From Pseudomonas kermanshahensis (GTDB lineage Bacteria > Pseudomonadota > Gammaproteobacteria > Pseudomonadales > Pseudomonadaceae): DNA of 64,000 nucleotides. The notes under the pieces were generated by a model, which was not told the DNA's origin, did not search any database, and saw nothing but the letters and a program-made list of their open reading frames with translations. Where the stretch lies: contig NZ_JABWRY020000001.1 of the NCBI RefSeq assembly GCF_014269205.2, positions 3,534,001-3,598,000 on the forward strand, written 5' to 3'. How positions within the stretch are numbered: position 1 is the first letter of the stretch; each line of letters opens with the position of its first letter. Below, in pieces: positions 872-33,260 of the stretch. A program made the translations under genes and the position numbers.

Positions 872-887
872 TGCTGCTGCAGCAGCA
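872..887. promoter_or_regulatory. Palindrome TGCTG-N3-CAGCA (candidate activator site, operon 1085)
   Basis: A 16-bp perfect palindrome that can be read as two overlapping copies of TGCTG-N3-CAGCA (872-884 and 875-887). It lies about 110 bp upstream of the -24/-12 element at 998, a normal distance for a sigma54 enhancer site. The same motif precedes every other sulfur operon in the window. Confidence 0.6.
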
Positions 888-997
888 ACGCGCCAGCACT
901 GCCCTGCGTGCCGATCAGCAGGCTGGGCTGCACGCCGCGCCCCTCCCATGTGCTGAAGGCCCCGCCGTTAACGGCCTGCAGCCGCCTTTTCGAAGAC

Positions 998-1013
998 TGG
1001 CATGCATTTCGCT
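998..1013 (+). promoter_or_regulatory. Sigma54 promoter, TGGCATGCATTTCGCT
   Basis: The -24 GG (999-1000) and -12 GC (1011-1012) are separated by exactly 10 nt, as sigma54 requires. It is the weakest match of the six (TCGC instead of TTGC). Predicted transcription start is near 1024, about 60 nt before the ATG at 1085. Confidence 0.6.
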
Positions 1014-1084
1014 CCTGGCCTGGCAATGCCTGGTTCGCTGCAGCACGCGGCCCAGACCTGTTGAACCCTTGTTTGGAGCCGCAC

Positions 1085-2158
1085 ATGAACACACTCTGGC
1101 GTCACGGCCTGGCCCTGTTGGGCGGCCTGTTACTCAGCCTGACCACATTGGCCGCCGAGCCACCGGCAGCGGTGCGCATCGCCATCGTTGCCTTCACCCA
1201 AGGCGGCGCGCCGGTCTTCGGGGGCATCCCGGGGCGGGTGATCGAAGACGGCTGGCTCGAACAGCAGTTGGCCGCCCGCGGCGTGAAGCTGCAATGGACC
1301 GCCCTGCCCCACGCCGGCGCGGGGCCACAAATCAACGAAGGTTTCAGCAACGACAGCCTGGACTTCGCCGTACGCGGCGACCTGCCCTCGGTCATCGCTG
1401 GCGCCGGCCAAGTGCCCGGCAAGCTGATCGTGCCGGGTGGCAGCGGCAACAACATTTACCTGGTGGTGCCCAGCGGCTCTGCGGTGCGCAGCATCCAGGA
1501 CCTCAAAGGCAAGCGCCTGGCCCTGCACCGCGGGCGGCCCTGGGAATTTGCCTTCAGCAACTTCCTGGAAAGCCAGGGCCTCAAGCTGACCGACTTCAAG
1601 ATCGCCAACCTCAACCCGCAGGTCGGTGCCGCCGCCGTGTCGGCCGGCAAGGTCGATGCCGCCGTGCTGCTCAACGAAGCCTACGCCCTGGAAGACAAAG
1701 GTGTGGCGCGGATTCTCTGGTCGACCAAGCAAGGCGCCAACGACTGGCGGCTGGTGTCCGACCTGTGGGGCACCGACCGCTTCGTGCAGCAGCACGCCGA
1801 CCTTACGCAGCTGGTGGCCACGGCCTGGGTGCGCGCGGCCTGGTGGATCTCCCAAGCGCAGAACCGCGACGCCTATTACGCGCTGTCGTCCCGCGCCGGG
1901 GTGGCCGAAAGCGTGCTGCGCCGCGATGACCAGGACGACCCGGTGGCCTGGAAAGCGCGCTGGGCGCCGAAAAGCGATGCCCAACTCAAAGCCCACTACG
2001 ACGCCCTGGGCCAATACGCCTTGGCCAACCGCCTGATCCGCACGCCCTACGACATCAGCAGCGACCTGGCCACAGGCTTCACCCGCCAGGCGCTGATCGA
2101 CCTGCAGCTCACCCACTACTGGCCGTCCCTGGACGCTCAAATCAGCCAACAACCTTGA
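1085..2158 (+). CDS. SsuA/NrtA-type periplasmic binding protein of an ABC importer
   Basis: 357-aa periplasmic solute-binding protein of the aliphatic sulfonate/nitrate/taurine class. The N-terminal signal peptide ends near LTTLAAEPPA; the binding-protein fold is shown by NIYLVVPSGSAVRSIQDLKGKRLALHRG and by the C-terminal lobe with RTPYDISSDLATGF. The ATG at 1085 has GGAG 7 nt upstream and gives a proper signal peptide; starts further upstream would bury it. It is the first gene of a plus-strand operon (next gene 11 nt away) behind a sigma54 promoter. No permease or ATPase of its class is adjacent; the only matching importer core is at 33356-35671. The ligand is presumably a sulfonate or related organosulfur anion (inference). 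Confidence 0.85.
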   Translation: MNTLWRHGLALLGGLLLSLTTLAAEPPAAVRIAIVAFTQGGAPVFGGIPGRVIEDGWLEQQLAARGVKLQWTALPHAGAGPQINEGFSNDSLDFAVRGDLPSVIAGAGQVPGKLIVPGGSGNNIYLVVPSGSAVRSIQDLKGKRLALHRGRPWEFAFSNFLESQGLKLTDFKIANLNPQVGAAAVSAGKVDAAVLLNEAYALEDKGVARILWSTKQGANDWRLVSDLWGTDRFVQQHADLTQLVATAWVRAAWWISQAQNRDAYYALSSRAGVAESVLRRDDQDDPVAWKARWAPKSDAQLKAHYDALGQYALANRLIRTPYDISSDLATGFTRQALIDLQLTHYWPSLDAQISQQP

Positions 2159-2169
2159 GAACATCTTCC

Positions 2170-3393
2170 ATGAAATTGCCTGTTTCCATCGTTTTCGGCC
2201 TCAGTGCCCTGGCCTTTTCCATTGGCGCCCTGGCCGCCGACACCTACGCCCCCAAACCCGACCCGCAACAAGGCGACGGCCGCGTTTCGAGCTTCTACAC
2301 CTGGTCCAAGGCAATCCCGGCCACCCCCGGTAAACTGCTGCGCAGCGAGCCGCTGGACTCAGCGCTGAGCTTGCCCAACGCCGCCAGTGCCCAGCGCATC
2401 CTCTACACCTCGCTGGACGGCATCGACGGCAAGACGCCAATCGTGGTCTCTGGCGCGCTGTTCATTCCCAAGGGCCCGGCGCCCGCCGGTGGCTGGCCGG
2501 TCGCCAGTTGGGGCCACGGCACCGTCGGGGTGGCGGATATTTGCGCACCGTCCTGGGCCGGGCGTTCCTACCGCGATGTGCAGTACCTGAACCGCTGGCT
2601 CGAAGAGGGCTATGCCATCGTCGCCACCGACTACCAAGGCCTGGGTGTACCCGGTGGCCACCCGCTGCTGAACAACCGCATGGCCGCCTACGGCATTCTC
2701 GATGCCGCCAAGGCCGTGGTCGCCGGCGTGCCGGGGCTGGCCGACAAGGTCCTGATCATCGGCCAATCCCAGGGTGGCGCTGGTGCCTTTGCAGCCGGTG
2801 CCTATGCCGCAACCTATGCACCCAAACTGGGGGTCAAGGGCAGCATCGGCACCGGCGTGATCTACACCGTGGGGTCGAAAAACGTCGGTGAGCAGGACCA
2901 GAACAAGGTCGACCCGGCCCTGGCCTACGGCTTCTACACCTTGCTCGCCGCACAGCAGTACGACCCGAGCATCGACCCGCGCGACTTCTACACCGACAAG
3001 GCCCTGCCGCTGTTCGAGCAGGCGCGCACCAGTTGCCTGTCGGCACTGGTCAGCGATGTGGTCGGCACCGGCCTGACCCCCGCCAACGCCAAAAAGGACT
3101 ACCAGGGCGACCAGCTCAAACCGTGGCTGGCCCAAGTGTCGTACCCCACCCTCAAACTGGCCCAGCCGATCTTCATCGGCACCGGCGCCGAGGACAAGAC
3201 CCCTGCCGCCGCGACCCAGGTTGCACTGATGCAGGATGCCTGCAAGGCCGGCTCGGTGGTGCAGGGCCACCTGTACAAAGGCCTGGGCCATAGCGAAACG
3301 GTCAACGCCTCACTCAAGGACTCGATCCCCTTCGCCCGCCAGGTCATCAGCGGCCAGCCGGTCACGCCCAACTGCAGCCCCAGCGTCCAGTAA
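2170..3393 (+). CDS. Secreted alpha/beta hydrolase (lipase/esterase-like)
   Basis: 407-aa exported alpha/beta hydrolase of the secretory-lipase type. The signal peptide is MKLPVSIVF...GALAA before DTYAPKP. The nucleophile elbow GQSQGG lies near residue 200, and the catalytic His is probably in GLGHSE near residue 378. Cysteines in ICAPSW, ARTSCLS and QDACKAG suggest disulfides, fitting a periplasmic or extracellular place. The ATG at 2170 is preferred over the in-frame TTG at 2155 because it begins the signal peptide. It sits 11 nt after the binding protein and 12 nt before a monooxygenase gene. It may release organosulfur acids from esters or thioesters before import; this role is inference and the substrate is unknown. 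Confidence 0.75.
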   Translation: MKLPVSIVFGLSALAFSIGALAADTYAPKPDPQQGDGRVSSFYTWSKAIPATPGKLLRSEPLDSALSLPNAASAQRILYTSLDGIDGKTPIVVSGALFIPKGPAPAGGWPVASWGHGTVGVADICAPSWAGRSYRDVQYLNRWLEEGYAIVATDYQGLGVPGGHPLLNNRMAAYGILDAAKAVVAGVPGLADKVLIIGQSQGGAGAFAAGAYAATYAPKLGVKGSIGTGVIYTVGSKNVGEQDQNKVDPALAYGFYTLLAAQQYDPSIDPRDFYTDKALPLFEQARTSCLSALVSDVVGTGLTPANAKKDYQGDQLKPWLAQVSYPTLKLAQPIFIGTGAEDKTPAAATQVALMQDACKAGSVVQGHLYKGLGHSETVNASLKDSIPFARQVISGQPVTPNCSPSVQ

Positions 3394-3405
3394 GGAGGCC
3401 ACCCC

Positions 3406-4605
3406 ATGAGCATCGAATTCTTCACCCGCCTGCCACTGCATGGCGAAACCCAGTACCTGCCTGGCGACCCGCGCAACCGCGGCGACTGGCACGCAGGTGG
3501 CGACAGCAGCGGTGCGGTGTCCGGGTTCGCGGTAGGTGATCACTTCACCTACATCGATTACCTCGGGCAAATCGCCCGCGCTGCGGAAATCAACGGCTTC
3601 GGCGGCGCACTGATGGTCAATGCGCCCACCGGCGAAGAGCCGTGGACCGTGTGCTCGCTGCTGGCACGGGAAACCCGCACGCTCAAGTTCGTCACCGCGT
3701 TCCAGCCTTATCACTACACGCCCTGGGTGGCCGTGCAACAGGCCGCGACCTACCAGCGCGCCACCGGCAACCGGCTGGTATGGAACATCATCAACGGCGG
3801 CTCTGATGCCATCCAGCGCCAGGTCGGCGACTTCGAGGGCCACGACGAGCGTTACGCCCGCGCCACCGAGTTCATGGACGTGGTACGCGGCTACTGGCAC
3901 AACGAGCAATTCCACTACGAGGGCACCTATTACCGTGCCGAGGGCGGCGGGCTGCGCGGGCCGCTGAAAAAAGCCGAGCTGCCGCTGATCTGCACCGCCG
4001 GTTCTTCGCTGGCCGCGCGCGAGTTCGCCGCCAAGCATGCCGACTTCTACCTGATGCGTGCCGAACACCCGGACGAGATTGCCGCGCTGATCGCCGACAT
4101 CCGCGCCCGCGCCTTGAAGTGGGGGCGTACCGACATTCGCTTCGGCCTATCCATCGACGTGATTGCCCGCGAGACCGAAGAGGCCGCGCGGGCCGAGGCC
4201 AAACGTTTCTTCGACGAAGGCGTGGCCAAGGGCACGGTCAAGGCCCGCGCCGCCCATGCTGGCCTGCGCACCGCACGCAAGCTGAGCTACGAGCACGGCT
4301 ACAGCGACAAGGACGAGCAGCAGGCCTTCGACGATTTCTTCATCCACCCCAACGTGTGGACCGGCTTCGGCTATATCGGCATCCCGCCAGGCTGCGCGCT
4401 GGTGGGCAGCTACGCCAACGTGGTGGCGCGCATCCGCGAGTACCACGGCATCGGCATCGACCTGTTCTTCCTTGCCGGCTACCCGCACCTGGAAGAAGCC
4501 TACCGCCTCGGCGAGCATATCTTGCCGCACTTCCGTGGCCAGCGCGCCGCCCTCGCCCGCCCGGCGCCCACCCCCGTGCAACTGCACGCCAGCAACGGGG
4601 GCTGA
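3406..4605 (+). CDS. SsuD-like FMNH2-dependent monooxygenase
   Basis: 399-aa luciferase-like (LLM) flavin monooxygenase of the SsuD/NtaA/DszA group; these use reduced flavin and O2 to cleave C-S or oxidise S and N compounds in the cytoplasm. Family marks: the TFAFQP-like strand KFVTAFQPYHYTPW, the barrel motif GNRLVWNIINGGSD, the ERYARATEF helix, and the C-terminal FLAGYPHLEEAYRLGEHILP matching SsuD FIFSGYPHLEES. A strong AAGGAGG overlaps the upstream stop, 8 nt before the ATG. Closely similar in layout to the protein at 24647. The expected flavin reductase is not in the window. The substrate is not predictable; alkanesulfonate or sulfone are the natural candidates. Confidence 0.88.
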   Translation: MSIEFFTRLPLHGETQYLPGDPRNRGDWHAGGDSSGAVSGFAVGDHFTYIDYLGQIARAAEINGFGGALMVNAPTGEEPWTVCSLLARETRTLKFVTAFQPYHYTPWVAVQQAATYQRATGNRLVWNIINGGSDAIQRQVGDFEGHDERYARATEFMDVVRGYWHNEQFHYEGTYYRAEGGGLRGPLKKAELPLICTAGSSLAAREFAAKHADFYLMRAEHPDEIAALIADIRARALKWGRTDIRFGLSIDVIARETEEAARAEAKRFFDEGVAKGTVKARAAHAGLRTARKLSYEHGYSDKDEQQAFDDFFIHPNVWTGFGYIGIPPGCALVGSYANVVARIREYHGIGIDLFFLAGYPHLEEAYRLGEHILPHFRGQRAALARPAPTPVQLHASNGG

Positions 4606-4609
4606 CGCC

Positions 4610-6163
4610 ATGGCCTGGGACGGTTACCCATTGAGCCGGCGCGCCTTCATTGGCCATGCCGGCGTACTAGCCGGTGGGCTGCTGGCCGGCTGCGGCCCAA
4701 GCGACAGCCCCGGCGACGCGGTTGCTGACCAGCCACGCCATGGCGGGCGCCTGCGTCTTGGCATCATCGATGGCAACCAAAGCGGCAACCTCGACGCCCA
4801 TAAACCGGTCGGCAGCGGCATCGTCCGCGGCTTTGCCTTGTACAGCAAGCTGTGGGAGTGGGACGAGCAGATGCAGCCGCGCCTGGCCCTGGCCGAGTTC
4901 GCCGAGCCCAATGCCGACGCCAGCGGCTGGACGTTGCGGCTCAAGCCTGGGCTGGAGTTTCACCACGGCAAGAGCATCGACGCCGACGACCTGATCTTCT
5001 CCATCAGGCGCCTGACTGACCCGCAGCTGGCCTCGCCCTATGCGGCGCTGCTGCACTGGGTCGACCGCGACAACCTGGTCAAGCTCGACGATCGCACCGT
5101 GCGCCTGGCTTTTCGCGAAGGCCGCAGCTACCTGCCGTTGCCCGAGACGTGGGTCAACTTCGGCGGCATCGTACCGGTGGACTACCACCCGGTCACCAAC
5201 CCGGTCGGTGCCGGCCCTTACAAACTCAAAAGTTTCACCCCGGGCCAACGCTCGCTGTTCACCCGTTTCGACAATTACTACAAGCCCGGCAAACCGTATG
5301 CCGATGAACTGGAGATCATCGACTTCAAGGACCAGACCGGCCGCCTGGCGGCCTTGCGCGCCGGGCAGATCGACATGGCCAACGTCATGTCCACCGAGCA
5401 CCTGCAAGTGCTGCAGGCCGACCCACGCCTGCGCCTGCTGAAGTCGGTGAGCGGCAACTGGTTGTCGTTCGACATGAACACCACCAAAGCGCCCTTCGAC
5501 GACCCGCGGGTGCGTGAGGCGTTTCGCCTGCTGGCAGACCGAGAGGACTTGGTGCGCCGGGCACTCAATGGCCAGGGCCGGGTGGCCAATGACCTGTACG
5601 CCCCTTTCGACCCCACCTTCGACCACAGCCTCGGGCCACGCCCGCATGACCCACAACGGGCGGCGCAATTGCTCCAGGACGCGGGCCACGAAGGCCTGCA
5701 GGTGGAACTGGTCACGACCCCAGGGCCTGGGCTTGCCTCGGCCCTGGTGCTGGCCGAACAGGCACGGCGCATCGGCGTGACGATCACGGTACGCCAGGTC
5801 GACCTGGCGACGTTCCAGGGGCCGCAGCGCGACGACTGGACGTTGAGCACTGGGGGCAGCATCGGTGCGCCGTTTCTGGCCAGCGCCATCCATACCGACG
5901 CGCCGTTCGCCGTGGCCAACAAGACTCACTTCCACGACCCGGCGTTCAGCGAGGCCTTTCTCGCTGCCATGGCCCAGCCCGACCTTGAGAAACGCAAAGC
6001 CCTGGTGCACCGCGCCCAACGCATCCAGTACGAACGCGGCGGCATGCTGATCTGGGGCTTTGCCGACTTGCTCGACAGCGTCAGCACACGGGTCGGTGGG
6101 GCGCAGGCGGAGCAGTCGCTGTTCAGTACCTGGCGGTTCGAGAGCCTGTGGCTCAGGAGCTAA
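4610..6163 (+). CDS. Tat-exported lipoprotein, peptide/organosulfur-binding (SBP family 5)
   Basis: 517-aa DppA/OppA-type binding protein. The N-terminus has a twin-arginine-like motif SRRAFIG followed by a lipobox LLAGC, so it should be a Tat-exported lipoprotein. Family signatures include LRLKPGLEFHHGKSIDADDL and NPVGAGPYKLKSF. The ATG lies 4 nt after the stop of the monooxygenase. It is a clear paralogue of the protein at 14062-15636 (shared HGGRLRxGIIDGxQxGNLDAHKP region). The Dpp-type permeases and ATPase that could serve it are in the opposite-strand operon 10389-14069. The ligand is probably a sulfur-containing peptide or conjugate (inference). Confidence 0.85.
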   Translation: MAWDGYPLSRRAFIGHAGVLAGGLLAGCGPSDSPGDAVADQPRHGGRLRLGIIDGNQSGNLDAHKPVGSGIVRGFALYSKLWEWDEQMQPRLALAEFAEPNADASGWTLRLKPGLEFHHGKSIDADDLIFSIRRLTDPQLASPYAALLHWVDRDNLVKLDDRTVRLAFREGRSYLPLPETWVNFGGIVPVDYHPVTNPVGAGPYKLKSFTPGQRSLFTRFDNYYKPGKPYADELEIIDFKDQTGRLAALRAGQIDMANVMSTEHLQVLQADPRLRLLKSVSGNWLSFDMNTTKAPFDDPRVREAFRLLADREDLVRRALNGQGRVANDLYAPFDPTFDHSLGPRPHDPQRAAQLLQDAGHEGLQVELVTTPGPGLASALVLAEQARRIGVTITVRQVDLATFQGPQRDDWTLSTGGSIGAPFLASAIHTDAPFAVANKTHFHDPAFSEAFLAAMAQPDLEKRKALVHRAQRIQYERGGMLIWGFADLLDSVSTRVGGAQAEQSLFSTWRFESLWLRS

Positions 6164-6185
6164 ACACTAGGCCAGCACGCTCTTC

Positions 6186-6288
6186 TGTGGGAGCGGGCTT
6201 GCCCCGCGAAGCAGGTACCCCGAGTGGATCGCACGGGCTTCGCCCGTGTTCGCAGAGCAAGCCCCACACAAGGGGCGCATAGCGCCCC
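6186..6288. repeat. REP-like hairpins
   Basis: In the 210-bp gap before the TonB gene: a P. putida-type REP core (6186-6210, GGGAGCGGGCTTGCCCCGCGAA), a hairpin CACGGGC/GCCCGTG (6232-6248) and a hairpin GGGGCGC/GCGCCCC (6272-6288). They may slow read-through or shield mRNA ends inside the operon. No promoter was found in this gap. Confidence 0.7.
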
Positions 6289-6373
6289 CGGCAGTCGCCA
6301 TAGGCACCCAATAACCGCAGGCGCGGCTGCGCCCTCGCTTTTCCCATTCCCGAACAGAACGAGGCTCAGCCCC

Positions 6374-8950
6374 ATGCTCCGCGTTGCCTTGCTGCACCCG
6401 ACATTCCAGCCCAGCGCCCTGGCACTGGCCATCCTCGCCGCCAGCGTACCGCTGGCCTACGCCGAGGACACCCAACTGCAAACCGTCACCGTCCAAGCCG
6501 AACAGGCTGACGACGACGCCCTGCCCACGCGCCCACCGGCCTCGATCTACGGCGGCCTGGAAAGCAAAGTCCTCGACACGCCACGCTCGGTCACCCAGAT
6601 CAACGCCGAGCAATTGGCCCGCGACCCGATCCAGAGCTCGGACGACCTGGTCAAATACGCCCCCGGCATCACCCGTGGCGGCGGCCAGAACGCCGGCATC
6701 GCCCCGCAAATGCGCGGGCAAAGCTCCGAGGTGTTCCAGGATGGCCAACGCGCCTACGGCGTACGCCACCCCGCCAACTTCAACGCCTACGAAGGCGCCG
6801 ACATCGTCGCCGGGCCTTCATCAGTCACCTACGGATCGGTCAGTGGCAGCGGCGGCTACATCAACTACCTAAGCAAGAAGCCCGACTTCAACCGCTTCCG
6901 CACCCGCCTGAGTGGCGAAATCGGCAGCTGGATCCCCGATGGCGAATCACGCGATGCCACCCAATTCAGCCTCGACAACACCGGCCCCCTCAATGACAGC
7001 CTGGCCTACCGGGTCAGCATCACCCGCCAGCGCCAGGAAACCTTCTACGACAACGTCGACAACAACTTCGACGCGTTCTACGGCGCCCTCGCCTGGCGCA
7101 ACGACAACCTGCGGGTGGACTGGAACGCCGCCTACGACGACTACTACGACTACAACATCACCCACGGCTGGAACCGCGCCACCCAGGACCTGGTCGACCA
7201 TGGCAGGTACAACGCCGGGCGCGCCACGCCGATCATCCAGAACGGCAACAGCCTGTGGTCGCCGGTGCTGTCATCGGGTGCCAGCGATGCCCAGGTACTC
7301 GGCTGGGTGCAGCGCCAGCGCAACGCGCAGGGCCAGTACCAGGTGGTCGATGGCAGCTTCCAGGGCGCCTCACCCAATACCCAGACCAGCCCAGGCAGCT
7401 TGCGCGGCTGGGTGTACGACCCGTCGCTGGCAGGCAATGGCCAGACCTCGCTGTCGTCACAGACCGGCCAGCGCGCACAGGACCAGAACCGCTCGCGGCG
7501 CTTCACCACACAACTGCGCGTCGAGGGCGACCTGACCCCGTCGATCACCCTGGCCAACAGCACTTTCTACCAGCACTCCACCGACACCACCGACGCGGTG
7601 GGCGCGTTCCAGGTGCAGGGCAAGGACGACATCTTCGACAACCGCTTCGAGTTCCGCGCCCGTGGCCAATGGCAGCTGGGCGGCCTGACGCTGGTCGACG
7701 ACAGCAACACCGGGCTGATCTACCGCCGCGAGACCAACGAGTCGATCGCCGCCAACAACAATTTTGGCTCCACCATCAACGCCTACGACCTCACCCTCGA
7801 CCCGACGCTGAAAAACCCTGGCGACCTGCTTGGCCTGAGTGGGCGCAACCCCGCCGGTGGCAACGGAGCCTGGATCGGCCAGCCCGGCGTGCCACAGTTG
7901 TCCAATTACTATGGCTGGCTCAACCTGCCCGCCATGTACCCGGCAGGGCACGGTTTGTACGCTGAATCGGTAGCGCCCTACACCGCCGACAGCACCTGGA
8001 CCACCCAAACCCTGTTCAGCCAGCACAACCTGCGCCTGGGCGAGCGCGTGGGGCTGAACGTGGGGGCCAGCCGCAGCTGGATCGATGCCCGTATCGAAAA
8101 CCCCTTCGTGCTCGCGGGCGGCAACCCGCGCAAGGACTCGGACAATTACCGGTTGTTCTCGGTACAGGTCAGCCCCTATTTCAAACCCACCGATAACAGC
8201 ACCCTGTACTACACCTTCGACCGCTCCCTCGCCGTCAACACCGGGTTCTTCACCAATGGTTTGGGCTGGGGCAGTGGCGCCGGGGCCAACCAGCTCAACC
8301 CACTGGCGTTCGAGAGCCTTAGCGTGCTGCACGAAGTGGGGCTGAAGGTCGAGGCCATGCCCGACCAGTTGTTCTTCACCTTGGCCGCCTACAAGCAGGC
8401 GCGCGACCAGTCGCCAGACAGCAACAACAACATCGCCCGGTTGATCGTCAAAGGCTGGGAAGCGACCCTGCGCTACCAGGACCCGCACCTGCGCGGCGGC
8501 CTCAACCTCAGCCGCATCAGTGCCTACAACGAGTTCACCAGCCAGGCCGGGTTCGCCTCCGCAGGGTTCATCCCCGACAACGGCACCGTGTTCGGCGATA
8601 ACAACAGCCTCAACCAGCGCCCGTCCGGCAAGTTCGATGCGGTGCAGATTCCTGAGTACAACGCCGGCGGCTATGTCGATTACCGCTTCGATTCCGGGTT
8701 CGGCGTGGAGCTCTCTGGCTGGTGGACCAGCAGCTGGTACCTGAACCTGAGCAAGACGGTGAAGGTGCCCGACGAATACAACCTCGACCTTGCCGCGTAT
8801 TACCGCCAGCCACAGTGGGGCGTGACGCTGCGCATGCTCAACGTCACCGACGAACTGAATTTCGTCAGCGGCCTGGCCGGCTCGACCAACACCTTCCTGC
8901 AACCCATGCCTGGGCGCACCTTGCTGGCCCAGGTCGATTACCAGTTCTGA
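6374..8950 (+). CDS. TonB-dependent outer-membrane receptor
   Basis: 858-aa TonB-dependent receptor. The signal peptide ends at PLAYA before EDTQLQ; a TonB-box-like TVTVQAEQ follows. The plug has VKYAPGITRGGG and GPSSVTYGSVSGSGG; the barrel ends with a terminal Phe (QVDYQF), as outer-membrane proteins do. The ATG at 6374 is chosen because it begins the signal peptide; the open frame continues 50 codons upstream through the REP hairpins without meaning. There is no N-terminal STN domain, so it should not signal through a FecR/FecI pair. Although the fold is siderophore-receptor-like, its place between organosulfur genes suggests uptake of a sulfur compound or complex (inference). Confidence 0.88.
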   Translation: MLRVALLHPTFQPSALALAILAASVPLAYAEDTQLQTVTVQAEQADDDALPTRPPASIYGGLESKVLDTPRSVTQINAEQLARDPIQSSDDLVKYAPGITRGGGQNAGIAPQMRGQSSEVFQDGQRAYGVRHPANFNAYEGADIVAGPSSVTYGSVSGSGGYINYLSKKPDFNRFRTRLSGEIGSWIPDGESRDATQFSLDNTGPLNDSLAYRVSITRQRQETFYDNVDNNFDAFYGALAWRNDNLRVDWNAAYDDYYDYNITHGWNRATQDLVDHGRYNAGRATPIIQNGNSLWSPVLSSGASDAQVLGWVQRQRNAQGQYQVVDGSFQGASPNTQTSPGSLRGWVYDPSLAGNGQTSLSSQTGQRAQDQNRSRRFTTQLRVEGDLTPSITLANSTFYQHSTDTTDAVGAFQVQGKDDIFDNRFEFRARGQWQLGGLTLVDDSNTGLIYRRETNESIAANNNFGSTINAYDLTLDPTLKNPGDLLGLSGRNPAGGNGAWIGQPGVPQLSNYYGWLNLPAMYPAGHGLYAESVAPYTADSTWTTQTLFSQHNLRLGERVGLNVGASRSWIDARIENPFVLAGGNPRKDSDNYRLFSVQVSPYFKPTDNSTLYYTFDRSLAVNTGFFTNGLGWGSGAGANQLNPLAFESLSVLHEVGLKVEAMPDQLFFTLAAYKQARDQSPDSNNNIARLIVKGWEATLRYQDPHLRGGLNLSRISAYNEFTSQAGFASAGFIPDNGTVFGDNNSLNQRPSGKFDAVQIPEYNAGGYVDYRFDSGFGVELSGWWTSSWYLNLSKTVKVPDEYNLDLAAYYRQPQWGVTLRMLNVTDELNFVSGLAGSTNTFLQPMPGRTLLAQVDYQF

Positions 8951-8978
8951 CCCTTCCTCAACGTAAAAGGCCATCGCC

Positions 8979-18982: not shown

Positions 18983-18995
18983 TGCTGGGGCAGCA
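18983..18995. promoter_or_regulatory. Palindrome TGCTGGGGCAGCA (shared candidate activator site)
   Basis: TGCTG-N3-CAGCA with GGG in the middle, placed between two divergent sigma54 promoters (111 bp from the minus one, 42 bp from the plus one). A related pair of half-sites with a 6-nt spacer lies at 18957-18972 (TGCTG-N6-CAGCA). One site could drive both operons. Confidence 0.6.
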
Positions 18996-19036: not shown

Positions 19037-19052
19037 TGGCAAAGAACTTGCT
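19037..19052 (+). promoter_or_regulatory. Sigma54 promoter, TGGCAAAGAACTTGCT
   Basis: -24 GG (19038-19039) and -12 GC (19050-19051) are 10 nt apart with a full TTGCT at -12. The ATG of the DszC-like gene is 150 nt downstream, an unusually long leader that contains a REP pair. Confidence 0.75.
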
Positions 19053-20434: not shown

Positions 20435-20444
20435 ACCTAACCCT

Positions 20445-20551
20445 GGGGGCCGCTGCGCGGCCCATCGCAGGCAAGCCAGCGCCCACACACCAAGCCACGC
20501 CACCGTCACTGTGGGAGCTGGCTTGCCTGCGATGGGCTGCGTAGCAGCCCC
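20445..20551. repeat. Long imperfect inverted REP pair
   Basis: GGGGGCCGCTGCGCGGCCCATCG... and its inverse ...CGATGGGCTGCGTAGCAGCCCC flank about 30 bp in the 133-bp gap between the DszC-like gene and the exporter. It may uncouple exporter level from the first gene. Confidence 0.8.
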
Positions 20552-20567
20552 AGTACCGAGCCTCTAC

Positions 20568-24195: not shown

Positions 24196-24210
24196 GGTTT
24201 GGGAGGTGCA

Positions 24211-24453: not shown

Positions 24454-24490
24454 CGCAAAACTCAAGCCCTGCCCCCCGCAGCCCCCATGC

Positions 24491-24532
24491 TGCTCTCCCA
24501 GCATCCACTGCTTCCCGGTTGCTGCCACAGCA
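24491..24532. promoter_or_regulatory. Palindrome TGCTGCCACAGCA plus a weaker copy
   Basis: Perfect TGCTG-N3-CAGCA at 24520-24532, and a one-mismatch copy TGCTCTCCCAGCA at 24491-24503, 17 bp further upstream. The main site ends 57 bp before the -24 element. Two sites in tandem fit an oligomeric sigma54 activator. Confidence 0.6.
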
Positions 24533-24589
24533 GCACCCCACCCATCTCCTGCACCGCAAGCCCCCGCCGCACAAGCCCAACGCCACGCA

Positions 24590-24605
24590 TGGCACAGCCG
24601 TTGCA
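24590..24605 (+). promoter_or_regulatory. Sigma54 promoter, TGGCACAGCCGTTGCA
   Basis: Near-perfect sigma54 element: TGGCAC at -24 and TTGCA at -12, GG and GC 10 nt apart. The -12 GC is 42 nt before the ATG at 24647. Confidence 0.8.
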
Positions 24606-25798: not shown

Positions 25799-25816
25799 AC
25801 CCGACGGAGCCGGAAC

Positions 25817-26881
25817 ATGAGCACACCCCTCGATACCCTTTGGTACACCCGCTGTCCAGTCCCCACCGGCCTGGGCATCGCCGTGCAGCAAGGCTGGCTG
25901 CAGGATGACCTGGCCAGCCTTGGCACCCAGGTACAATCCCTGCGCGAAGCCGACCAGCAGGCCGTGCGCGAATCGCACTTCGACCACAGCCTGCTCAACT
26001 CGGTCCGCCACGGTGGCAGCATCCCGGCCATCTGGGCCCGCGCGCAAGGCCGCGAAACCCGTGTGATCGGCCTGTCGTGGGCCGATGAAGCGCAGTTGAT
26101 CCTGACCCGCCCGGACAGCGGCATCCACACGGTCAAGGACCTCAAGGGCCGGCGCTTCGGCCTGCCCGACTGGGCCTCGGCGCAGATCGACTTCACCCGC
26201 GCACAAGCCCTGCGCGGGCTGGAAAACGCCCTGAAACTCGAAGGCCTGCAAGTGGGCGACGTCGCGCTGGTCAACTACCGCTACGACGGCACCTTCAGCG
26301 ACCGCCCAGTGCGCAATGTGGCGGGTACACCGGTGTCCAGCACGCAAAGCGAAGGCCGCAACCTGGAGTTGGCCGGGCTGTTGCGCGGCGAGGTCGATGC
26401 GATCTTTCTCAAGGGCGCGAGCGCCGTGCAACTGGCCCATGCCTTTGCCCTGCACACGGTCATAGACACCGGCAGCCACCCCGACCCGTTGATCCGCAGC
26501 AACAACGGCACGCCGCGCACCCTCGCCGTGGACAGCCACCTGTTGGCGCAACACCCGCAGGTGGTGCGCACCCTGCTCTCGTCCGTACTGCGCGCCGAAC
26601 GCTGGGCCCATCAACACCCGGACGAAACCCGCCGCTACCTGGCCCGTGAAACCAACAGCAGCGAATACTGGGTCACGGTCGCGTACGGCGCCGATGCCCA
26701 CCTGCGCCTAAGCACCCGCCTGGATGACCAGGCTATCGACGCCCTGCAGGATTTTGTCGAATTTCTCAAACGCTGGCGCTTCATCCCCAACCGGTTCGAG
26801 GTACGTGACTGGATCGCCCGCCAACCCCTGGACCACTTGCTGGCCCCCACTCCCCTGGACAGGAAGCCCGTTACCCCATGA
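25817..26881 (+). CDS. DszB-like sulfinate desulfinase
   Basis: 354-aa cytoplasmic binding-protein-fold enzyme, no signal peptide. The full DszB-type triad is present: Cys13 in YTRCPVPTG, His54 and Arg64 in SHFDHSLLNSVRHGG. Conserved later segments: DFTRAQALRGLENALKLEGL and DTGSHPDPLIRSNNGTPRTL. It lies 18 nt after the monooxygenase stop, and its stop overlaps the next gene by 4 nt (ATGA). Close paralogue of the 26878 protein, more distant from the 17768 one. Predicted to release sulfite from an organic sulfinate; the organic part is unknown. Confidence 0.78.
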   Translation: MSTPLDTLWYTRCPVPTGLGIAVQQGWLQDDLASLGTQVQSLREADQQAVRESHFDHSLLNSVRHGGSIPAIWARAQGRETRVIGLSWADEAQLILTRPDSGIHTVKDLKGRRFGLPDWASAQIDFTRAQALRGLENALKLEGLQVGDVALVNYRYDGTFSDRPVRNVAGTPVSSTQSEGRNLELAGLLRGEVDAIFLKGASAVQLAHAFALHTVIDTGSHPDPLIRSNNGTPRTLAVDSHLLAQHPQVVRTLLSSVLRAERWAHQHPDETRRYLARETNSSEYWVTVAYGADAHLRLSTRLDDQAIDALQDFVEFLKRWRFIPNRFEVRDWIARQPLDHLLAPTPLDRKPVTP

Positions 26882-27936
26882 CCAAGCCATTGGAAACGCT
26901 CTGGTACACCCACAGCCCTGTGCCCACCGGGCTCGGCATCGCCGTGCAATCCGGGCGCCTGGCCGAGGCCTTTGCGCCGTTCGGCACCAACATCCAGTCA
27001 TTGCGCGAATCCAGCGAACGGGAAGTGCGCGAAGCCCACTACGACCACCACCTGCAGAACTCAGTACGCCACGGCGGCAACATCCCAGCAATCTGGGCCT
27101 ACGCCAGTGGTGTCGAGACCCGCGTGCTGGGGTTGTCGTGGAGCGATGAAGTGCAACTGATCCTGACCACCGAAGAAAGCGGTGTGCGCAGTATCCGCGA
27201 CCTGAAAAACCGCCGCTTCGGCTTGCCCAAGTGGGCCAACGTGCAGATCGATTTCACCCGCGCCCAGGCCCTGCGCGGGCTGGAAAACGCGCTGAAGCTC
27301 GAAGGCTTGAGCGTGGCGGATGTCGAACTGGTCGACTACCCCTACGGCGGTACCTACAGCGACGACGCCAAGCAGCACCTGTATGGCGCCGAAGTGAGCC
27401 TGGACACCAGCCGTTTCAGCCGCCGCAACAACGAACTGATCGGCCTGCTGCGCGGCGACATCGACGCGATCTTCCTCAAGGGCGCCCATGCGGTGCACCT
27501 GGCCCACGAGTTTGGCCTGCGTGTAGTCGTCGATACCGGCAGCCACCCCGACCCGCTGATCCGCAGCAACAACGGCACACCGCGCACCTTGACCGTGGAC
27601 CGGCATTTGCTGGAAGAGCACTTCGATGCCAGCCGTACACTGGTCGACACGGTGTTGCGCACCGAGCAGTGGGCGTGGGCCAACCCGGAAGAGACCCGGC
27701 GCTTCCTTGCCCGTGAGCTGAACACCAGCGAGTACTGGGTGGCCGCGGCTTATGGCGACGATGCCCACCGGCGCTTGCGCACGACCCTGGACAGCCGCTC
27801 GATCGATGCGCTGCAGGACTTTACCGAGTTCCTGTTCAGGTGGGGGTTCATACCGCGCCGGTTCGATGTGCGGGAGTGGATCGACTTCAGCGTGCTGGAG
27901 CGTGTGATCGGCTCGACTTCGCGGTTGGCTGTGTGA
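26878..27936 (+). CDS. DszB-like paralogue with the catalytic Cys replaced by Ser
   Basis: 352-aa protein colinear with the upstream paralogue (long identical runs such as DFTRAQALRGLENALKLEGL). His54 and Arg64 of the triad are kept (AHYDHHLQNSVRHGG), but the nucleophile position reads YTHSPVPTG: Ser13 (codon AGC) instead of Cys. In DszB the equivalent Cys27Ser protein is inactive. The gene looks healthy (no frameshift, coupled by ATGA), so a non-catalytic partner, a sulfur-ligand sensor or carrier, or a different reaction is likely rather than decay. Confidence 0.78.
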   Translation: MTKPLETLWYTHSPVPTGLGIAVQSGRLAEAFAPFGTNIQSLRESSEREVREAHYDHHLQNSVRHGGNIPAIWAYASGVETRVLGLSWSDEVQLILTTEESGVRSIRDLKNRRFGLPKWANVQIDFTRAQALRGLENALKLEGLSVADVELVDYPYGGTYSDDAKQHLYGAEVSLDTSRFSRRNNELIGLLRGDIDAIFLKGAHAVHLAHEFGLRVVVDTGSHPDPLIRSNNGTPRTLTVDRHLLEEHFDASRTLVDTVLRTEQWAWANPEETRRFLARELNTSEYWVAAAYGDDAHRRLRTTLDSRSIDALQDFTEFLFRWGFIPRRFDVREWIDFSVLERVIGSTSRLAV

Positions 27937-28080: not shown

Positions 28081-28093
28081 TGCTGCCCCAGCA
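28081..28093. promoter_or_regulatory. Palindrome TGCTGCCCCAGCA (operon 28240)
   Basis: TGCTG-N3-CAGCA, part of a 17-bp palindrome (GCTGCTG-CCC-CAGCAGC), 88 bp upstream of the -24 element. An additional half-site TGCTG lies at 28113-28117. Confidence 0.6.
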
Positions 28094-28162
28094 GCACCCG
28101 CCAAGCACCCCACTGCTGCCCTACCGGCAACAGCCCCCTAAAAAACCAATTAAATTCATATA

Positions 28163-28181: not shown

Positions 28182-28197
28182 TGGCACAGTCCCTGCT
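28182..28197 (+). promoter_or_regulatory. Sigma54 promoter, TGGCACAGTCCCTGCT
   Basis: Full TGGCAC at -24, CTGCT at -12, GG and GC 10 nt apart. The -12 GC is 44 nt before the ATG of the TonB gene. Confidence 0.75.
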
Positions 28198-28239: not shown

Positions 28240-30483
28240 ATGCACCAGCTCCACCCACTGGCCCGCCAGATCAGCCTCGCGCTGCTGCTGGCCGGCACCG
28301 GCGGCCAGGCCGTCGCCGCCAACGAAGACGCCAAGACCGAGCCCGCCCTGGAAACCGTCACCGTCACGGCCCAGCACCGCGAGCAGACCCTGCAGGAAGT
28401 CCCGGTCGCCGTGTCGGCGATCAAGGGCACCAGCATCACTGCCGACGGCGTGCGCTCGATGGGCGACATCACCACCTTCGTGCCCAACGCCTCGGCCAAG
28501 AACCCCGACGGCGATGGCCGGCCGCGGTGGTACATCCGTGGCCTGGGCACCGGTGACACCGGCGCCGCGACGGTCTACCCAGTGGGCATCTACGCCGACG
28601 ACGTCTACCTCAATGCACCGATCGCCGGCGGCGGCCCGCTGTTCGACCTCGAACGCATCGAGATCCTGCGCGGGCCGCAGGGCACCCTGTATGGCAAGAA
28701 CACCACGGCGGGCGCGGTCAACGTGATCTCGAAGAAGCCGACCTTCGACACCGACGGCTACGGCACAGTCGGCGTCGGCAGCAAGAACGAACGGATCCTC
28801 ACCGGTGCCATCGGCGGCGCGCTGGTGGACGAAAAACTGGCCGGCCGGGTGTCGCTGTACTCCGAAGAACGCGATGGCTTCCAGCACAACGACTTCGACG
28901 GCAACACCTATGGCGACGTCAACAAGAAAGCCATCCGCCTGCAGTTCCTCGCCCAGCTCAACCCCGACCTGGACGCCTTGCTGAAGCTGCACAGCCGCCA
29001 GTTCAAGGGCGATGGCAGCAACGGCTCGCTGCCGGTGGGCCGCTACTACAACGTCGGTTACGAGCGCCCCAATGGCCGCGACATTTCGCTCAACGTCAAC
29101 GAGGACTACCGCCTCGACCACGACGGCGCGTCGCTGACCTTCAACTGGTACCTGGGCGACTACACCCTGACCTCGATCAGCGCCTACGACTACATCCGCA
29201 ACCGCTCGACCAGCGACGCCGACTACACCCCATACGAGGTCAACGGCGCGTCGATCACCGACAACAGCTACCGCCAGTGGTCGCAGGAGCTGCGCCTGGC
29301 ATCGCCGGAAGACCGCCCGCTGCACTGGCTGGCAGGCGCGCACTACTTCCATGAGGACCTCGACAGCGCGGCCCAGCGCATCGTCACCCCGGGCCCGACA
29401 CCCAACGGCACCGGTTCGAACCAGGTCGGCACCACCGCGTTCCGCGACCTGGGCTATGACCACCGCACCGACAGCTACGCGCTGTTTGGCAACCTCACCT
29501 ACGACTTCACCGATGACTTCAGCGTGACGGGTGGCCTGCGCTGGACCCAGGAGAAAAAAGACATCGACCTGGACCTGACCCAGTTGACCCGCACCACCGC
29601 CAACGGCCCGCTGATCCCGCTGGCAGGCGTGGGCACCAACGGCAATCGCCAGGAAGACAAGACTTGGGAAGCCTGGACTTACGACCTGACCCCCGAGTAC
29701 CGCATCAACGACAACCTGCGGGTGTTCTTCCGCTATGCCCATGGCTTCCGCTCTGGTGGCTTCAACACAGGGCTATCGACCAGCCTTGCACAGCTGACCA
29801 CGGTGGACCCGGAAGAGCTGGATGCCTACGAGTTGGGCCTGAAATCCGAGTGGTTCGACCGCCGCCTGACGGTTAACGCCAACGTCTTCTACTACGACTA
29901 CAAGGACATTCAGGTGAACCTGCTGACGGTCAACAACGGCGTGCTCACCACCGCCTTGACCAACGGCGCCAAGGGCAAGGTAAAAGGGGCGGAGCTGGAG
30001 ATCGAAGGCCAGCCGACCGACCGCCTGCACGTGCGTGCGGCGGTGTCCTTCCTCGACACCGAATACACCGACTTCAAGAACACCAACCCCACCACTGGCG
30101 CGGTGACCGGCGACTACAGCGGCAACAGCTTCGTGCGCTCGCCACGCAACGTGGTGTCGCTGGGTGCCGACTACACCTTTCCGTTGCAGGTCGGCGGCAA
30201 GCTGGTAGCCGGCGGCGACGTGAGTTTCCGCGACAAGGAATACTTCCTTGCCGACCGCCAGAGCAGCGCTGACGAAACCCTCAGCCAGCCCCACTACACC
30301 CTGGCCAACGCCCGCCTGACCTGGTTCAGCCCCGACGACAAGCTGAGCGTGACCGGCTTCGTCAACAACCTCACCGACCGCCGCTACCAGGTGCATGGCC
30401 GGCCTAACGGGACTGCCGGGCAGTACGTGATCACCTATGGCGACCCACGCACGGTCGGGCTGAGTGTCACCAGCCGCTTCTGA
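28240..30483 (+). CDS. TonB-dependent outer-membrane receptor
   Basis: 747-aa receptor. The signal peptide ends near GQAVAA before NEDAK, and the TonB box is ETVTVTAQ (about residues 39-46). The plug carries RWYIRGLGTGDTG and LRGPQGTLYGKNTTAG; the barrel ends in Phe (SVTSRF). Similar receptors of this subgroup (IPR000531/plug type with GTLYGKNTTAG) often take up varied organic nutrients rather than siderophores. GGGGAG precedes the ATG. Its sigma54 promoter and palindrome place it under the same control as the sulfur enzymes, so organosulfur uptake is the likely job (inference). Confidence 0.9.
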   Translation: MHQLHPLARQISLALLLAGTGGQAVAANEDAKTEPALETVTVTAQHREQTLQEVPVAVSAIKGTSITADGVRSMGDITTFVPNASAKNPDGDGRPRWYIRGLGTGDTGAATVYPVGIYADDVYLNAPIAGGGPLFDLERIEILRGPQGTLYGKNTTAGAVNVISKKPTFDTDGYGTVGVGSKNERILTGAIGGALVDEKLAGRVSLYSEERDGFQHNDFDGNTYGDVNKKAIRLQFLAQLNPDLDALLKLHSRQFKGDGSNGSLPVGRYYNVGYERPNGRDISLNVNEDYRLDHDGASLTFNWYLGDYTLTSISAYDYIRNRSTSDADYTPYEVNGASITDNSYRQWSQELRLASPEDRPLHWLAGAHYFHEDLDSAAQRIVTPGPTPNGTGSNQVGTTAFRDLGYDHRTDSYALFGNLTYDFTDDFSVTGGLRWTQEKKDIDLDLTQLTRTTANGPLIPLAGVGTNGNRQEDKTWEAWTYDLTPEYRINDNLRVFFRYAHGFRSGGFNTGLSTSLAQLTTVDPEELDAYELGLKSEWFDRRLTVNANVFYYDYKDIQVNLLTVNNGVLTTALTNGAKGKVKGAELEIEGQPTDRLHVRAAVSFLDTEYTDFKNTNPTTGAVTGDYSGNSFVRSPRNVVSLGADYTFPLQVGGKLVAGGDVSFRDKEYFLADRQSSADETLSQPHYTLANARLTWFSPDDKLSVTGFVNNLTDRRYQVHGRPNGTAGQYVITYGDPRTVGLSVTSRF

Positions 30484-30494
30484 TTTTTCTGCCT

Positions 30495-30517
30495 TTGGGG
30501 CTGCTGTGCAGCCCCAA
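30495..30517 (+). terminator. Perfect hairpin between the two TonB genes
   Basis: TTGGGGCTGC / GCAGCCCCAA, 10-bp stem with a 3-nt loop, 12 nt after the stop of the first TonB gene. No T-run follows, so it is more likely an attenuating or mRNA-stabilising hairpin than a full terminator. Confidence 0.55.
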
Positions 30518-30547
30518 GGCACCCACGCCTTCTAAAAGGACATCCCC

Positions 30548-32995
30548 ATGCCCCACCACACCCCCTTGGCCAGCGCCATCGCCCTGGCCATCGGCAGCCT
30601 TGCCGTGCCCGCATTCGCCGCCGAACCCGCCACCAACCTCGACACCGTGGTCGTGGTCGGCACCCACCGCAGCGACGTCACCGCCCTGCAAAGCGCTGCG
30701 CCCGTCGACGTCCTGAGTGGCGAAAAACTGCAGGAAACCGGCGCCAGCGACCTGTCCGCCGCGCTCACGGCCTTGTCACCGTCGTTCAGCTTCCCGCAAT
30801 CGCCACAAGGCGCCTTTGCCGGCTCCATCGCCCAGGGCGCCTCGCTGCGCGGCCTGGCTTCCGACCAGGTGCTGGTGCTGGTCAACGGCAAACGCCGCCA
30901 CACCAGCGCCAACGTTACCCGCCAAGGCCTGGTCAACGCCCGCGGCGCGGCGGCAGTGGACCTCAGCTTGATCCCGCTGTCGGCCATCGAGCGGGTAGAG
31001 ATCCTGCGCGATGGCGCCGCCGCCCAATACGGTTCGGACGCCATCGCCGGGGTGATCAACATCGTCCTCAAGGAACGCGACGACGGCGGCAACGCCGGCT
31101 ACCGCTTCGGCGGCTACAAGAAAGGCGATGGCCTGCAACGCAAGCTCAGTGGCTGGAAAGGCTTTACCCTGCCCAACGACGGCTTCCTTACCCTGGCCTT
31201 CGACGCTGGCAGCCAGGACCCAGCCAGCGACACGCGCGACGACAACCGCCTGTTCTATCCCGGCTCGACCAGCATCGACACCCCGCGTGAGCAGAACAAC
31301 CGCTACCGCAACTGGCGCTGGGGCTCGGGCAACGTCTCGGACCAGTACAACTTCACCGCCAACGCCGAGATGGGCCTGAGCGAGGGCCTTAGCGCTTATG
31401 GCTTCGCCACCTACGCGCACAAGAACACCGACGCCGAGAACTTTTTCGACCCGCCCACCACCCTGCGTAACAACTACGGCAGCGTGGCGCTGGCGCGCTA
31501 CCCCGACGGCCGCTTGCCAATAACCCGCTATGGCCTGGAAGACTTCGCCGTCACCAGTGGCCTGCGCCTGGAGAATGAAGCACTGGGCAATTTCGACCTG
31601 GCGCTGAACTACGGCAACAACCGCGTCGACTCCACCGACCGCGACGCCATCAACCCCAGCTGGGGCACCGCCAGCCCCTCGACCATCTACACCGGCCGGC
31701 GCGAAGCCGACCAGACCAACCTGACCCTGGACTGGACACGCGACTTCGCCAACGACTGGCTGTTCAAGCCACTGACCGTTTCAGCAGGGCTGGCCTGGCG
31801 CCAGGAGAACTTCGACCTGACCGAGGGTGACGCCGCCGGCTGGTCCAACGGGCCGCTGTTCAACACCGTCGACCCGGTTTCTGGCCGGCGTATTCCCGGT
31901 TATTACTCGGGCATCACCCAGGTCGATGCCGTCTCGCTCGACCGCCGGGTGATCGGCGCCTACTTGGATGTCGAAGCCCAGTTCACCGAGAAATTCCAGG
32001 CCGGCGTGGCGGTACGTAGCGAGCACTACTCGGACTTTGGCGACACCACCAACGGCAAACTGTCGCTGCGCTATGACTTCACACCCGAAATCGCCGCCCG
32101 GGCCAGCGCCAGCACCGGCTACCGCGCGCCTTCACTGGTGCAGAGCGGGTTGTCCTCGTTCAGCGTGCAGGTGGTGGAGCAACCGCCGGGCAGTGGCAAC
32201 TGGGTCGAGGTGCAACAGCGCACCCTGCGAGCCGACAGCCCGGAAGCGGCGCTGTTGGGTGGCAAGTCGCTCAAGCCCGAAGAGTCGACCAACTTCTCCG
32301 TGGGCCTGGTCTGGCGCCCGCTGCCCAACGCTTCGGTGACGCTGGATGCCTACCGCATCGACATCGACAACCGCATCACCTTGTCCGACCAGTTGCCGTC
32401 GTCAGTGGTCACGCCGATTTTTGCCGGCACGCCCTACGCCAATATCCAGAGTGCGGCGTTCTACACCAACATCGCCGACACCCGCACGGATGGCTTCGAG
32501 CTGGCCGGCCACTACCAGCTAGAGCTGGGCGGTTGGGGCCGGCTGGACTTCAACGGCGGCTATGCGCGCAACAACACCCGTATCACCGGGCTGGACGACG
32601 TGGGCAGCATCCCCGGCAACCAGATCATCGGCCGCAACACCCAAGGCCTGATCGAGGACGGTACGCCCAAGGACAAACTGACCCTGAGCGCCAACTGGCT
32701 GTATGACGGCTGGAGCGTCACCGTGGCCCAACGCCGTTATGGCGAATGGCAGAGCCGCAACGCCGCCAACCCGGCGCTGGACCAGACGTTTGCGGCGCAG
32801 TGGGTGACCGACCTGGATGTGTCGTACCGCTTCGACCTGGGACTGACCTTGTCGGCGGGCGCGATCAACCTGTTCGACAGCCACCCAGACAAGCTCGAAG
32901 GCGCGCAGCTGTATGGGGTGCCGAAGTATTCCATCACCAGCCCCGAGGGAGCGCAGGGGGCGTTCTACTACACCAGCGTCAGTTACGATTTCTGA
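30548..32995 (+). CDS. TonB-dependent outer-membrane receptor
   Basis: 815-aa receptor of the BtuB/CirA-like plug group. The signal peptide ends AFAAEPA; a TonB-box-like DTVVVVGTH follows. Plug motifs: ASLRGLASDQVLVLVNGKRR and LRDGAAAQYGSDAIAG; terminal Phe in SVSYDF. AAGGA lies 8 nt before the ATG. It follows the first TonB gene by 64 bp with only a hairpin between and has no promoter of its own that I can see, so it is probably co-transcribed. Two different plug types in tandem suggest two related ligands. Confidence 0.9.
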   Translation: MPHHTPLASAIALAIGSLAVPAFAAEPATNLDTVVVVGTHRSDVTALQSAAPVDVLSGEKLQETGASDLSAALTALSPSFSFPQSPQGAFAGSIAQGASLRGLASDQVLVLVNGKRRHTSANVTRQGLVNARGAAAVDLSLIPLSAIERVEILRDGAAAQYGSDAIAGVINIVLKERDDGGNAGYRFGGYKKGDGLQRKLSGWKGFTLPNDGFLTLAFDAGSQDPASDTRDDNRLFYPGSTSIDTPREQNNRYRNWRWGSGNVSDQYNFTANAEMGLSEGLSAYGFATYAHKNTDAENFFDPPTTLRNNYGSVALARYPDGRLPITRYGLEDFAVTSGLRLENEALGNFDLALNYGNNRVDSTDRDAINPSWGTASPSTIYTGRREADQTNLTLDWTRDFANDWLFKPLTVSAGLAWRQENFDLTEGDAAGWSNGPLFNTVDPVSGRRIPGYYSGITQVDAVSLDRRVIGAYLDVEAQFTEKFQAGVAVRSEHYSDFGDTTNGKLSLRYDFTPEIAARASASTGYRAPSLVQSGLSSFSVQVVEQPPGSGNWVEVQQRTLRADSPEAALLGGKSLKPEESTNFSVGLVWRPLPNASVTLDAYRIDIDNRITLSDQLPSSVVTPIFAGTPYANIQSAAFYTNIADTRTDGFELAGHYQLELGGWGRLDFNGGYARNNTRITGLDDVGSIPGNQIIGRNTQGLIEDGTPKDKLTLSANWLYDGWSVTVAQRRYGEWQSRNAANPALDQTFAAQWVTDLDVSYRFDLGLTLSAGAINLFDSHPDKLEGAQLYGVPKYSITSPEGAQGAFYYTSVSYDF

Positions 32996-33012
32996 TCAGC
33001 GACCGCGCTGGC

Positions 33013-33105
33013 ATCTTCGCGGGCAAGCCCGCTCCCACCCGAACCGTGTAGCCTCCAAAGCTAGCGCCGCACCTGTGGGAGCTGGCTTGCCAGCGATGAG
33101 GCCAG
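33013..33105. repeat. REP doublet (BIME-like), copy B (inverted relative to copy A)
   Basis: REP core, ~45-bp spacer (GTGTAGCCTCCAAAGCTAGC), inverted REP core. The 33031-33081 part is the reverse complement of the copy at 27950-28060 with two or three differences. Together they bracket the TonB pair. Confidence 0.8.
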
Positions 33106-33173
33106 AACAAGCACCACAAGACAGTTGCTCTCACAGGGTCAGCAACTCGCTTGCGATCTTTGTACTCTGCGTA

Positions 33174-33201
33174 CTTGTGGGAGCGGGCTTGCCCGCGAAG
33201 A
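33174..33201. repeat. Single REP core
   Basis: CTTGTGGGAGCGGGCTTGCCCGCGAAG, a lone REP element upstream of the importer-core operon. Confidence 0.75.
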
Positions 33202-33228
33202 AGCCAGAACGTAGTGCTGACGACCTGC

Positions 33229-33260
33229 TGCTGGAGCAGCAGCCCTGTGCTGCTCCAGCA
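33229..33260. promoter_or_regulatory. Two TGCTG-N3-CAGCA palindromes (operon 33356)
   Basis: TGCTGGAGCAGCA at 33229-33241 (inside an 18-bp palindrome 33225-33242) and TGCTGCTCCAGCA at 33248-33260, 19 bp apart centre to centre (about two helix turns). They end 42 bp before the -24 element. This is the clearest tandem arrangement of the motif in the window. Confidence 0.65.

Follow-up and report, generated by a model that had tools for sequence, protein, structure and literature searches.

We examined the palindromes that lie between the organosulfur genes of a 64,000-nucleotide stretch of Pseudomonas kermanshahensis DNA (the window; G000:C1:3534001-3598000 of a 6.15-Mb genome), together with the sigma54 activator gene at its left edge. 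The repeated unit is a 16-bp dyad, TGCTGC-N4-GCAGCA, which precedes sigma54-like promoters in the window and in the corresponding clusters of other Pseudomonas genomes. From these sequence comparisons, we consider it very probable that the neighboring activator, a sister of SfnR, uses the palindromes as its upstream sites and through them drives at least 19 organosulfur genes.

The 16-bp dyad and its promoters

A sequence-only reading of the window had listed a 13-bp palindrome, TGCTG-N3-CAGCA, at seven positions, always in intergenic DNA ahead of sigma54 promoters. All seven positions proved exact and intergenic, and the underlying observation is genuine and not due to chance: the 13-mer occurs eight times in the window, against a mean of 0.18 and a maximum of one in 100 shuffles. 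Genome-wide there are 75 matches, 64 within predicted genes and 11 intergenic; seven of the 11 are the listed sites, each with a sigma54-like site 42-114 bp downstream, and the genome-wide scan found no sigma54-like site downstream of the remaining four. Patterns combining the motif with the -24/-12 letters matched four times (gap 40-70) and four times (gap 85-115) in the whole genome, every match lying in the cluster, so that the scan proposed with the sequence-only reading found the pairing eight times and never elsewhere. Three 13-mer strings had no match in the literature searched. The eighth 13-mer of the window, which had gone unlisted, is at 17082-17094 inside an aldolase-like gene (17009-17740, minus strand) and differs from the dyad at 2 of 12 positions; we rejected it as a regulatory site, since it is coding and has no sigma54-like site nearby.

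The 13-mer with its three-base center is an off-centered piece of the true unit. Every pentamer was paired with its reverse complement at spacings of 0-12, and the pairs were counted across the 391 intergenic regions that 27 cluster stretches contain. These are our own cluster plus 26 stretches from 25 genomes, hand-picked, mainly as longer contigs, out of 38 other carriers of the activator gene; 26 of the 27 hold 93 sigma54-like promoters before genes, and the stretch of G032 has none. The top pairs were TGCTG-N6-CAGCA (60 regions) and TGCTG-N3-CAGCA (58), and no pair exceeded six in 20 shuffles. Because both are sub-matches of TGCTGC-N4-GCAGCA, the 16-bp dyad ranks first. The 13-mer was rejected as the unit because the N6 spacing is as common as N3, and also because locus L191 carries a perfect 16-mer without an exact 13-mer. 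Base frequencies at the cluster-promoter sites are biased in the arm columns, those sites having been chosen by consensus match; the enumeration is free of that bias.

Intergenic dyads with at most one mismatch start at 872, 18957, 18980, 24488, 24520, 28081, 33226, and 33248, and the only further match in the window at this threshold, at 340, is inside a gene. Two entries of the earlier list, 872-884 and 875-887, are one dyad in two registers, and the list had missed the dyads at 18957-18972 and 24488-24503 (one mismatch each). The exact 16-mer occurs 10 times in the genome; four copies are in the window; outside it, five lie in coding sequence and the sixth is between genes but has no promoter. 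The dyads and promoters are as follows (fractions give dyad letters matched; dyads carry no strand).

872..887, dyad TGCTGCTGCAGCAGCA, 12/12
905..920, weak partner dyad retaining only the outer TGC-N10-GCA, 33 bp from 872 (read by eye, position inferred)
998..1013, plus strand, sigma54-like promoter, score 13.4
18857..18872, minus strand, sigma54-like promoter, score 16.9
18957..18972, dyad TGCTGCCAGATCAGCA, 11/12
18980..18995, dyad TGTTGCTGGGGCAGCA, 11/12
19037..19052, plus strand, sigma54-like promoter, score 14.5
24488..24503, dyad TGCTGCTCTCCCAGCA, 11/12
24520..24535, dyad TGCTGCCACAGCAGCA, 12/12
24590..24605, plus strand, sigma54-like promoter, score 18.2, the maximum of the window
28081..28096, dyad TGCTGCCCCAGCAGCA, 12/12
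28114..28129, weak partner dyad TGCTGCCCTACCGGCA, 10/12
28182..28197, plus strand, sigma54-like promoter, score 15.7
33226..33241, dyad TGCTGCTGGAGCAGCA, 12/12
33248..33263, dyad TGCTGCTCCAGCATCA, 11/12
33303..33318, plus strand, sigma54-like promoter, score 14.1

Dyads are mostly tandem, two or three helical turns apart. In the window the pairs are spaced by 23 bp (18957/18980), 32 bp (24488/24520), 33 bp (28081/28114, the second member with two mismatches), and 22 bp (33226/33248); the pair 18957/18980 lies between two divergent promoters and could serve both. Over the cluster stretches, a second dyad (at most three mismatches, or exact outer triplets) was found 21-23 or 32-34 bp from 60 of 83 primary sites, compared with 8 of 83 at control offsets. 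The distances from dyad to -24 element have a best period of 10.6 bp (scan of 6-16; R = 0.60, 44 modes), with P = 2e-4 when modes were shifted independently and P = 0.0026 when whole target classes were shifted. Such phasing is expected if the contact is always made from one side of the helix.

The activator gene and conservation across Pseudomonas

The activator gene occupies 1..752 on the minus strand with its 5' part and continues past the left edge to about G000:C1:3533691. Its start is likely the ATG at 752, where relatives begin (residue 17 of the longer reading), with a TTG at 800 as a possible alternative. The protein of 370 amino acids (aa) matches in Pfam only the sigma54 AAA+ and lid domains, plus a sub-threshold helix-turn-helix; it has GAFTGA and no N-terminal sensor domain, and so belongs by these criteria with the sensor-less group IV activators of the SfnR type. 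Orthologues with 78-96% identity (40 genes) are present in 39 of 249 Pseudomonas genomes. Below them identity drops sharply, the SfnR group reaching 64% at most, and both groups coexist in one genome; the paralogue in our own genome is 62% identical. The recognition helix reads ISRNIVRARL in our activator and in all 26 orthologues read (of 38 orthologous loci, our search pattern missing the other 12), and LSRNITRTRL in our own SfnR. By sequence, then, the activator is a distinct sister of SfnR and not its orthologue. The nearest named relatives come from Pseudomonas, e.g., P. capeferrum and P. putida, and most database entries name the protein merely as a sigma54 regulator. Among the matches listed in a scan of GTDB, the nearest Pseudomonas relatives were at the SfnR level (62%); six of the loci, along with L082, served solely in the search for dyads, in which five GTDB loci had no intergenic dyad within one mismatch. 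A PDB search with the stand-alone helix-turn-helix fragment gave no useful match.

Conservation bears out the claim that the palindrome is a conserved site and not a copied repeat, since it is kept in relatives while its flanks are not copied and its centers vary. In 29 orthologous loci (of 39 orthologous genes besides our own), the 13-mer next to the activator gene is exact in 23, has one mismatch in five, and is missing in one (L192), and a sigma54-like site stands beside the gene in 27; in the alignment the dyad stands out amid diverged flanks. A dyad with at most two mismatches lies within 180 bp upstream of 87 of the 93 cluster promoters (at most one mismatch: 80; exact: 33), as against 2/93 downstream and 2/93 one kb upstream. 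Gene order differs in several stretches (G128, G159, G194, G013, and G193). In G130 contig C193 holds the activator gene, while the DszB-like/SfnB-like gene pair is 54 kb into contig C13, which is at least 118 kb long; in G007 too the pair and the activator gene are on different contigs, the latter at least 89 kb from both ends of its own. Both pairs keep their dyads and promoters far from the activator gene, and the conservation is therefore not merely one of local linkage.

Motif and activator gene are associated over the genus. We compared the 249 Pseudomonas genomes by the gap 40-70 pattern, the gap 85-115 version having been run on our own genome. The pattern is present in 23 of 39 carriers of the activator gene and in 23 of 210 non-carriers (Fisher test: P = 3e-10; P = 1e-9 without our own genome). 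Of 30 hit loci, 17 come from carriers, and 14 of these (all but G194, G027, and G226) have a dyad ahead of an intergenic promoter; of the 13 from non-carriers, none does. The 16-mer alone was uninformative over the genus: 247 of 249 genomes have one, mostly by chance or in coding sequence, and because such matches swamp the counts we drew no association from them.

Several points weigh against assigning the dyads to this activator. Sixteen of the 39 carriers have no gap 40-70 pattern, partly since other distances are used; the locus L192 of G032 has neither dyad nor promoter; and 6 of the 93 cluster promoters have no dyad within two mismatches. The genomes are related and not independent, which makes the P values soft. 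The gene calls for window and genome come from our own codon-usage caller, and the promoter matrix is likewise our own, written from the sigma54 consensus.

Two further observations concern the activator gene. Upstream of it, most of the 29 orthologous loci share a well-conserved AT-rich block (790-860, AATTATTAATTAATATTTAT); SfnR is reportedly regulated by CysB, and by analogy one might guess that the block is a CysB site or a promoter, with the activator under CysB control. Elsewhere in the genome, a 71-aa open frame (L083 5317-5532; G000:C1:1735320-1735532, minus strand) repeats only the DNA-binding end of the activator, at 82-85% identity there, and had no separate counterpart in 19 other carriers tested; it could be either a remnant or a stand-alone competitor.

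SfnR, its presumed operator, and other explanations

The 62% paralogue shares its operon with a DszC/SfnB-like protein and with a reductase that scores above the cut-off of the MsuE family, and in at least 10 genomes among the matches listed an SfnR-group gene is no more than 8 kb from sfnG; because of this operon and this nearness we take the paralogue as SfnR. The gene sfnG, reportedly an SfnR target, is at C1:3909580 in our genome, away from the cluster. At the sfnG promoters (the 30 best-scoring of 118 genomes), a related dyad, TGTTGC-N4-GCAACA, was found within one mismatch in 15 and within two in 20, usually 83-86 or 100 bp ahead of the sigma54-like site (loci L263-L292 and L302), and in our own genome as TGTTGGCCCCGCAACA 85 bp upstream. 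The TGCTGC dyad was found there within one mismatch in 1 of 30 and within two in 9 of 30. TGTTGC fits better at 25 of the sfnG promoters and TGCTGC at two, with three ties; L274, L275, and L281 are among the few with neither dyad. At the 93 cluster promoters the preference is reversed (TGCTGC better at 62, TGTTGC at one, 30 ties). TGTTGC-N4-GCAACA is thus likely the SfnR operator, and because the dyad preferences are opposite and the recognition helices differ, activator and SfnR appear from sequence to use sister operators one base per half-site apart. Hybrid half-sites (C..A 15 and T..G 10 of 60 sites) leave room for cross-talk. On balance we favor a model in which the two paralogues split the organosulfur genes by one symmetric base (TGTTGC for SfnR, TGCTGC for its sister), with cross-talk at hybrid sites, the sister sites having been kept tandem and phased through rearrangements across Pseudomonas.

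The sequence-only reading had named an SfnR-like activator at the left edge as the natural binder; the association over 249 genomes makes that activator the likely one, but the implied equality with SfnR did not hold, the protein being a paralogue with a different dyad. That SfnR itself is the main binder of the cluster sites, the local activator doing something else, we regard as unlikely. In its favor are the 62% identity of SfnR, the matching geometry of the presumed SfnR operator, and the existence of hybrid half-sites; however, among genomes lacking the activator gene the motif is no more frequent with an SfnR-group protein (15/124) than without one at that threshold (8/86; P = 0.65, counts tallied by hand before testing), and the dyad preferences of sfnG (TGTTGC at 25/30) and of the clusters run in opposite directions. 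Some other regulator binding the dyads is slightly less probable still. Binding by the activator is itself inferred, and the genome has many other sigma54 activators (24 matches), but the association described above is with this activator's gene, which adjoins the sites in the relatives examined, and sigma54 promoters require an activator of this kind.

Perfect or near-perfect palindromes between genes, in a region that holds other inverted repeats, could also suggest RNA hairpins (terminators) or copied repeats of the repetitive extragenic palindromic (REP) kind. We consider this very improbable: the genes on either side of the dyads at 872 and at 18957-18995 diverge, so that transcripts do not end there, the flanks are not copied, and position is phased to the promoters. 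The least probable explanation is that a common pentamer pair recurs by chance in a GC-rich genome. Most exact 13-mers (64/75) do fall in predicted genes, the one at 17082 among them, but the excess over shuffles, the exclusive pairing with sigma54-like sites, and the retention in relatives speak against it, and the genome-wide counts of the combined patterns refute it.

If the dyads are indeed sites of the SfnR-sister activator, the protein, having no sensor domain, would probably be active whenever it is made, and its level would likely be the switch. Its dimers would bind the dyads, helping the AAA+ ring to form, and would reach sigma54 RNA polymerase from one helix face at -24/-12 promoters about 40-120 bp away. 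The genes controlled would serve to take up organosulfur compounds and to cleave C-S bonds, and we expect them to be expressed when sulfate is limiting.

The closest known system is SfnR with sfnFG/sfnECR of Pseudomonas putida, in which a sensor-less sigma54 activator likewise serves organosulfur genes and a 16-bp dyad with identical geometry precedes the sigma54-like promoters; it differs in the activator (62% identity, another recognition helix), in the dyad (TGTTGC, not TGCTGC), and in the target set. The enhancers of NtrC and NifA are also tandem dyads with TGC or TGT outer triplets, acting on sigma54 promoters via looping. They resemble the present sites in outer triplets and tandem arrangement but have other inner letters, and our activator has no receiver or sensor domain. 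SfnR2 of Pseudomonas aeruginosa is reportedly a paralogue of SfnR that functions in organosulfur use. A relative of our activator at 81%, with the same recognition helix, occurs in that species and may or may not be SfnR2; if it is, the activator has already been named. DszR, a sigma54 activator described as binding two contiguous sequences upstream of the promoter of the dsz desulfurization genes (PMC11550978), offers with dszEABC a close functional parallel as far as that description goes; Dsz-like enzymes occur here too, but they are distant from DszB and DszC.

An exact putative operator gives a predictable target list for an activator found in many Pseudomonas species, and ties DszB-like, DszC-like, and alkanesulfonate monooxygenase-like proteins, transporters, and TonB receptors into one unit. 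The one-base difference between the dyads offers a clean case for how paralogous activators diverge.

Genes of the predicted regulon and neighboring features

The sequence-only reading had envisaged a single local regulon of some 20 genes. We predict at least 19 genes in six transcripts, with operon limits drawn from spacing, and the pairing of motif and promoter is confined to the cluster.

1085..10067, plus strand, six genes (operon predicted from spacing): SsuA-like binding protein, lipase-like protein, SsuD-like monooxygenase, family 5 binding protein, TonB plug protein, SsuD-like monooxygenase
17009-17740, minus strand, class II aldolase-like protein
17768-18823, minus strand, DszB-like protein (the leftward transcript 17009..18823 may extend down to 10389)
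19202..24195, plus strand, three genes: SfnB/DszC-like oxidoreductase and two ATP-binding cassette (ABC) transporters with fused membrane and ATPase domains
24647..27936, plus strand, three genes: SsuD-like monooxygenase and two SsuA-like binding proteins
28240..32995, plus strand, two TonB-dependent receptors
33356..35671, plus strand, three genes: two SsuC-like permeases and an SsuB/SaoA-like ATPase

Family matches (SsuA-, SsuD-, SfnB/DszC-, DszB-, and SsuC/SsuB-like proteins) suggest organosulfur use; the matches to sulfur families score under the curated cut-offs, and family thus does not fix the substrates.

Left of the aldolase-like gene, a run on the minus strand (10389-16834) encodes a monooxygenase, a family 5 binding protein, two permeases, and a double ABC ATPase. 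Scans of the window found no dyad or sigma54 site of its own, and the run may be read through from the promoter at 18857. Between the monooxygenase gene and the aldolase-like gene there is a 36-nt REP-like inverted repeat (16884-16977), which may end or punctuate the leftward transcript. A longer inverted repeat of 122 nt (24196-24468; 86% complementary, 29-nt loop) lies directly upstream of the dyads at 24488 and 24520. Farther right (36202-50567), a minus-strand open frame of 3608 aa stands beside type I secretion genes of the PrtD and HlyD families; it looks like a large protein that these genes would export, and the set is not part of the regulon.

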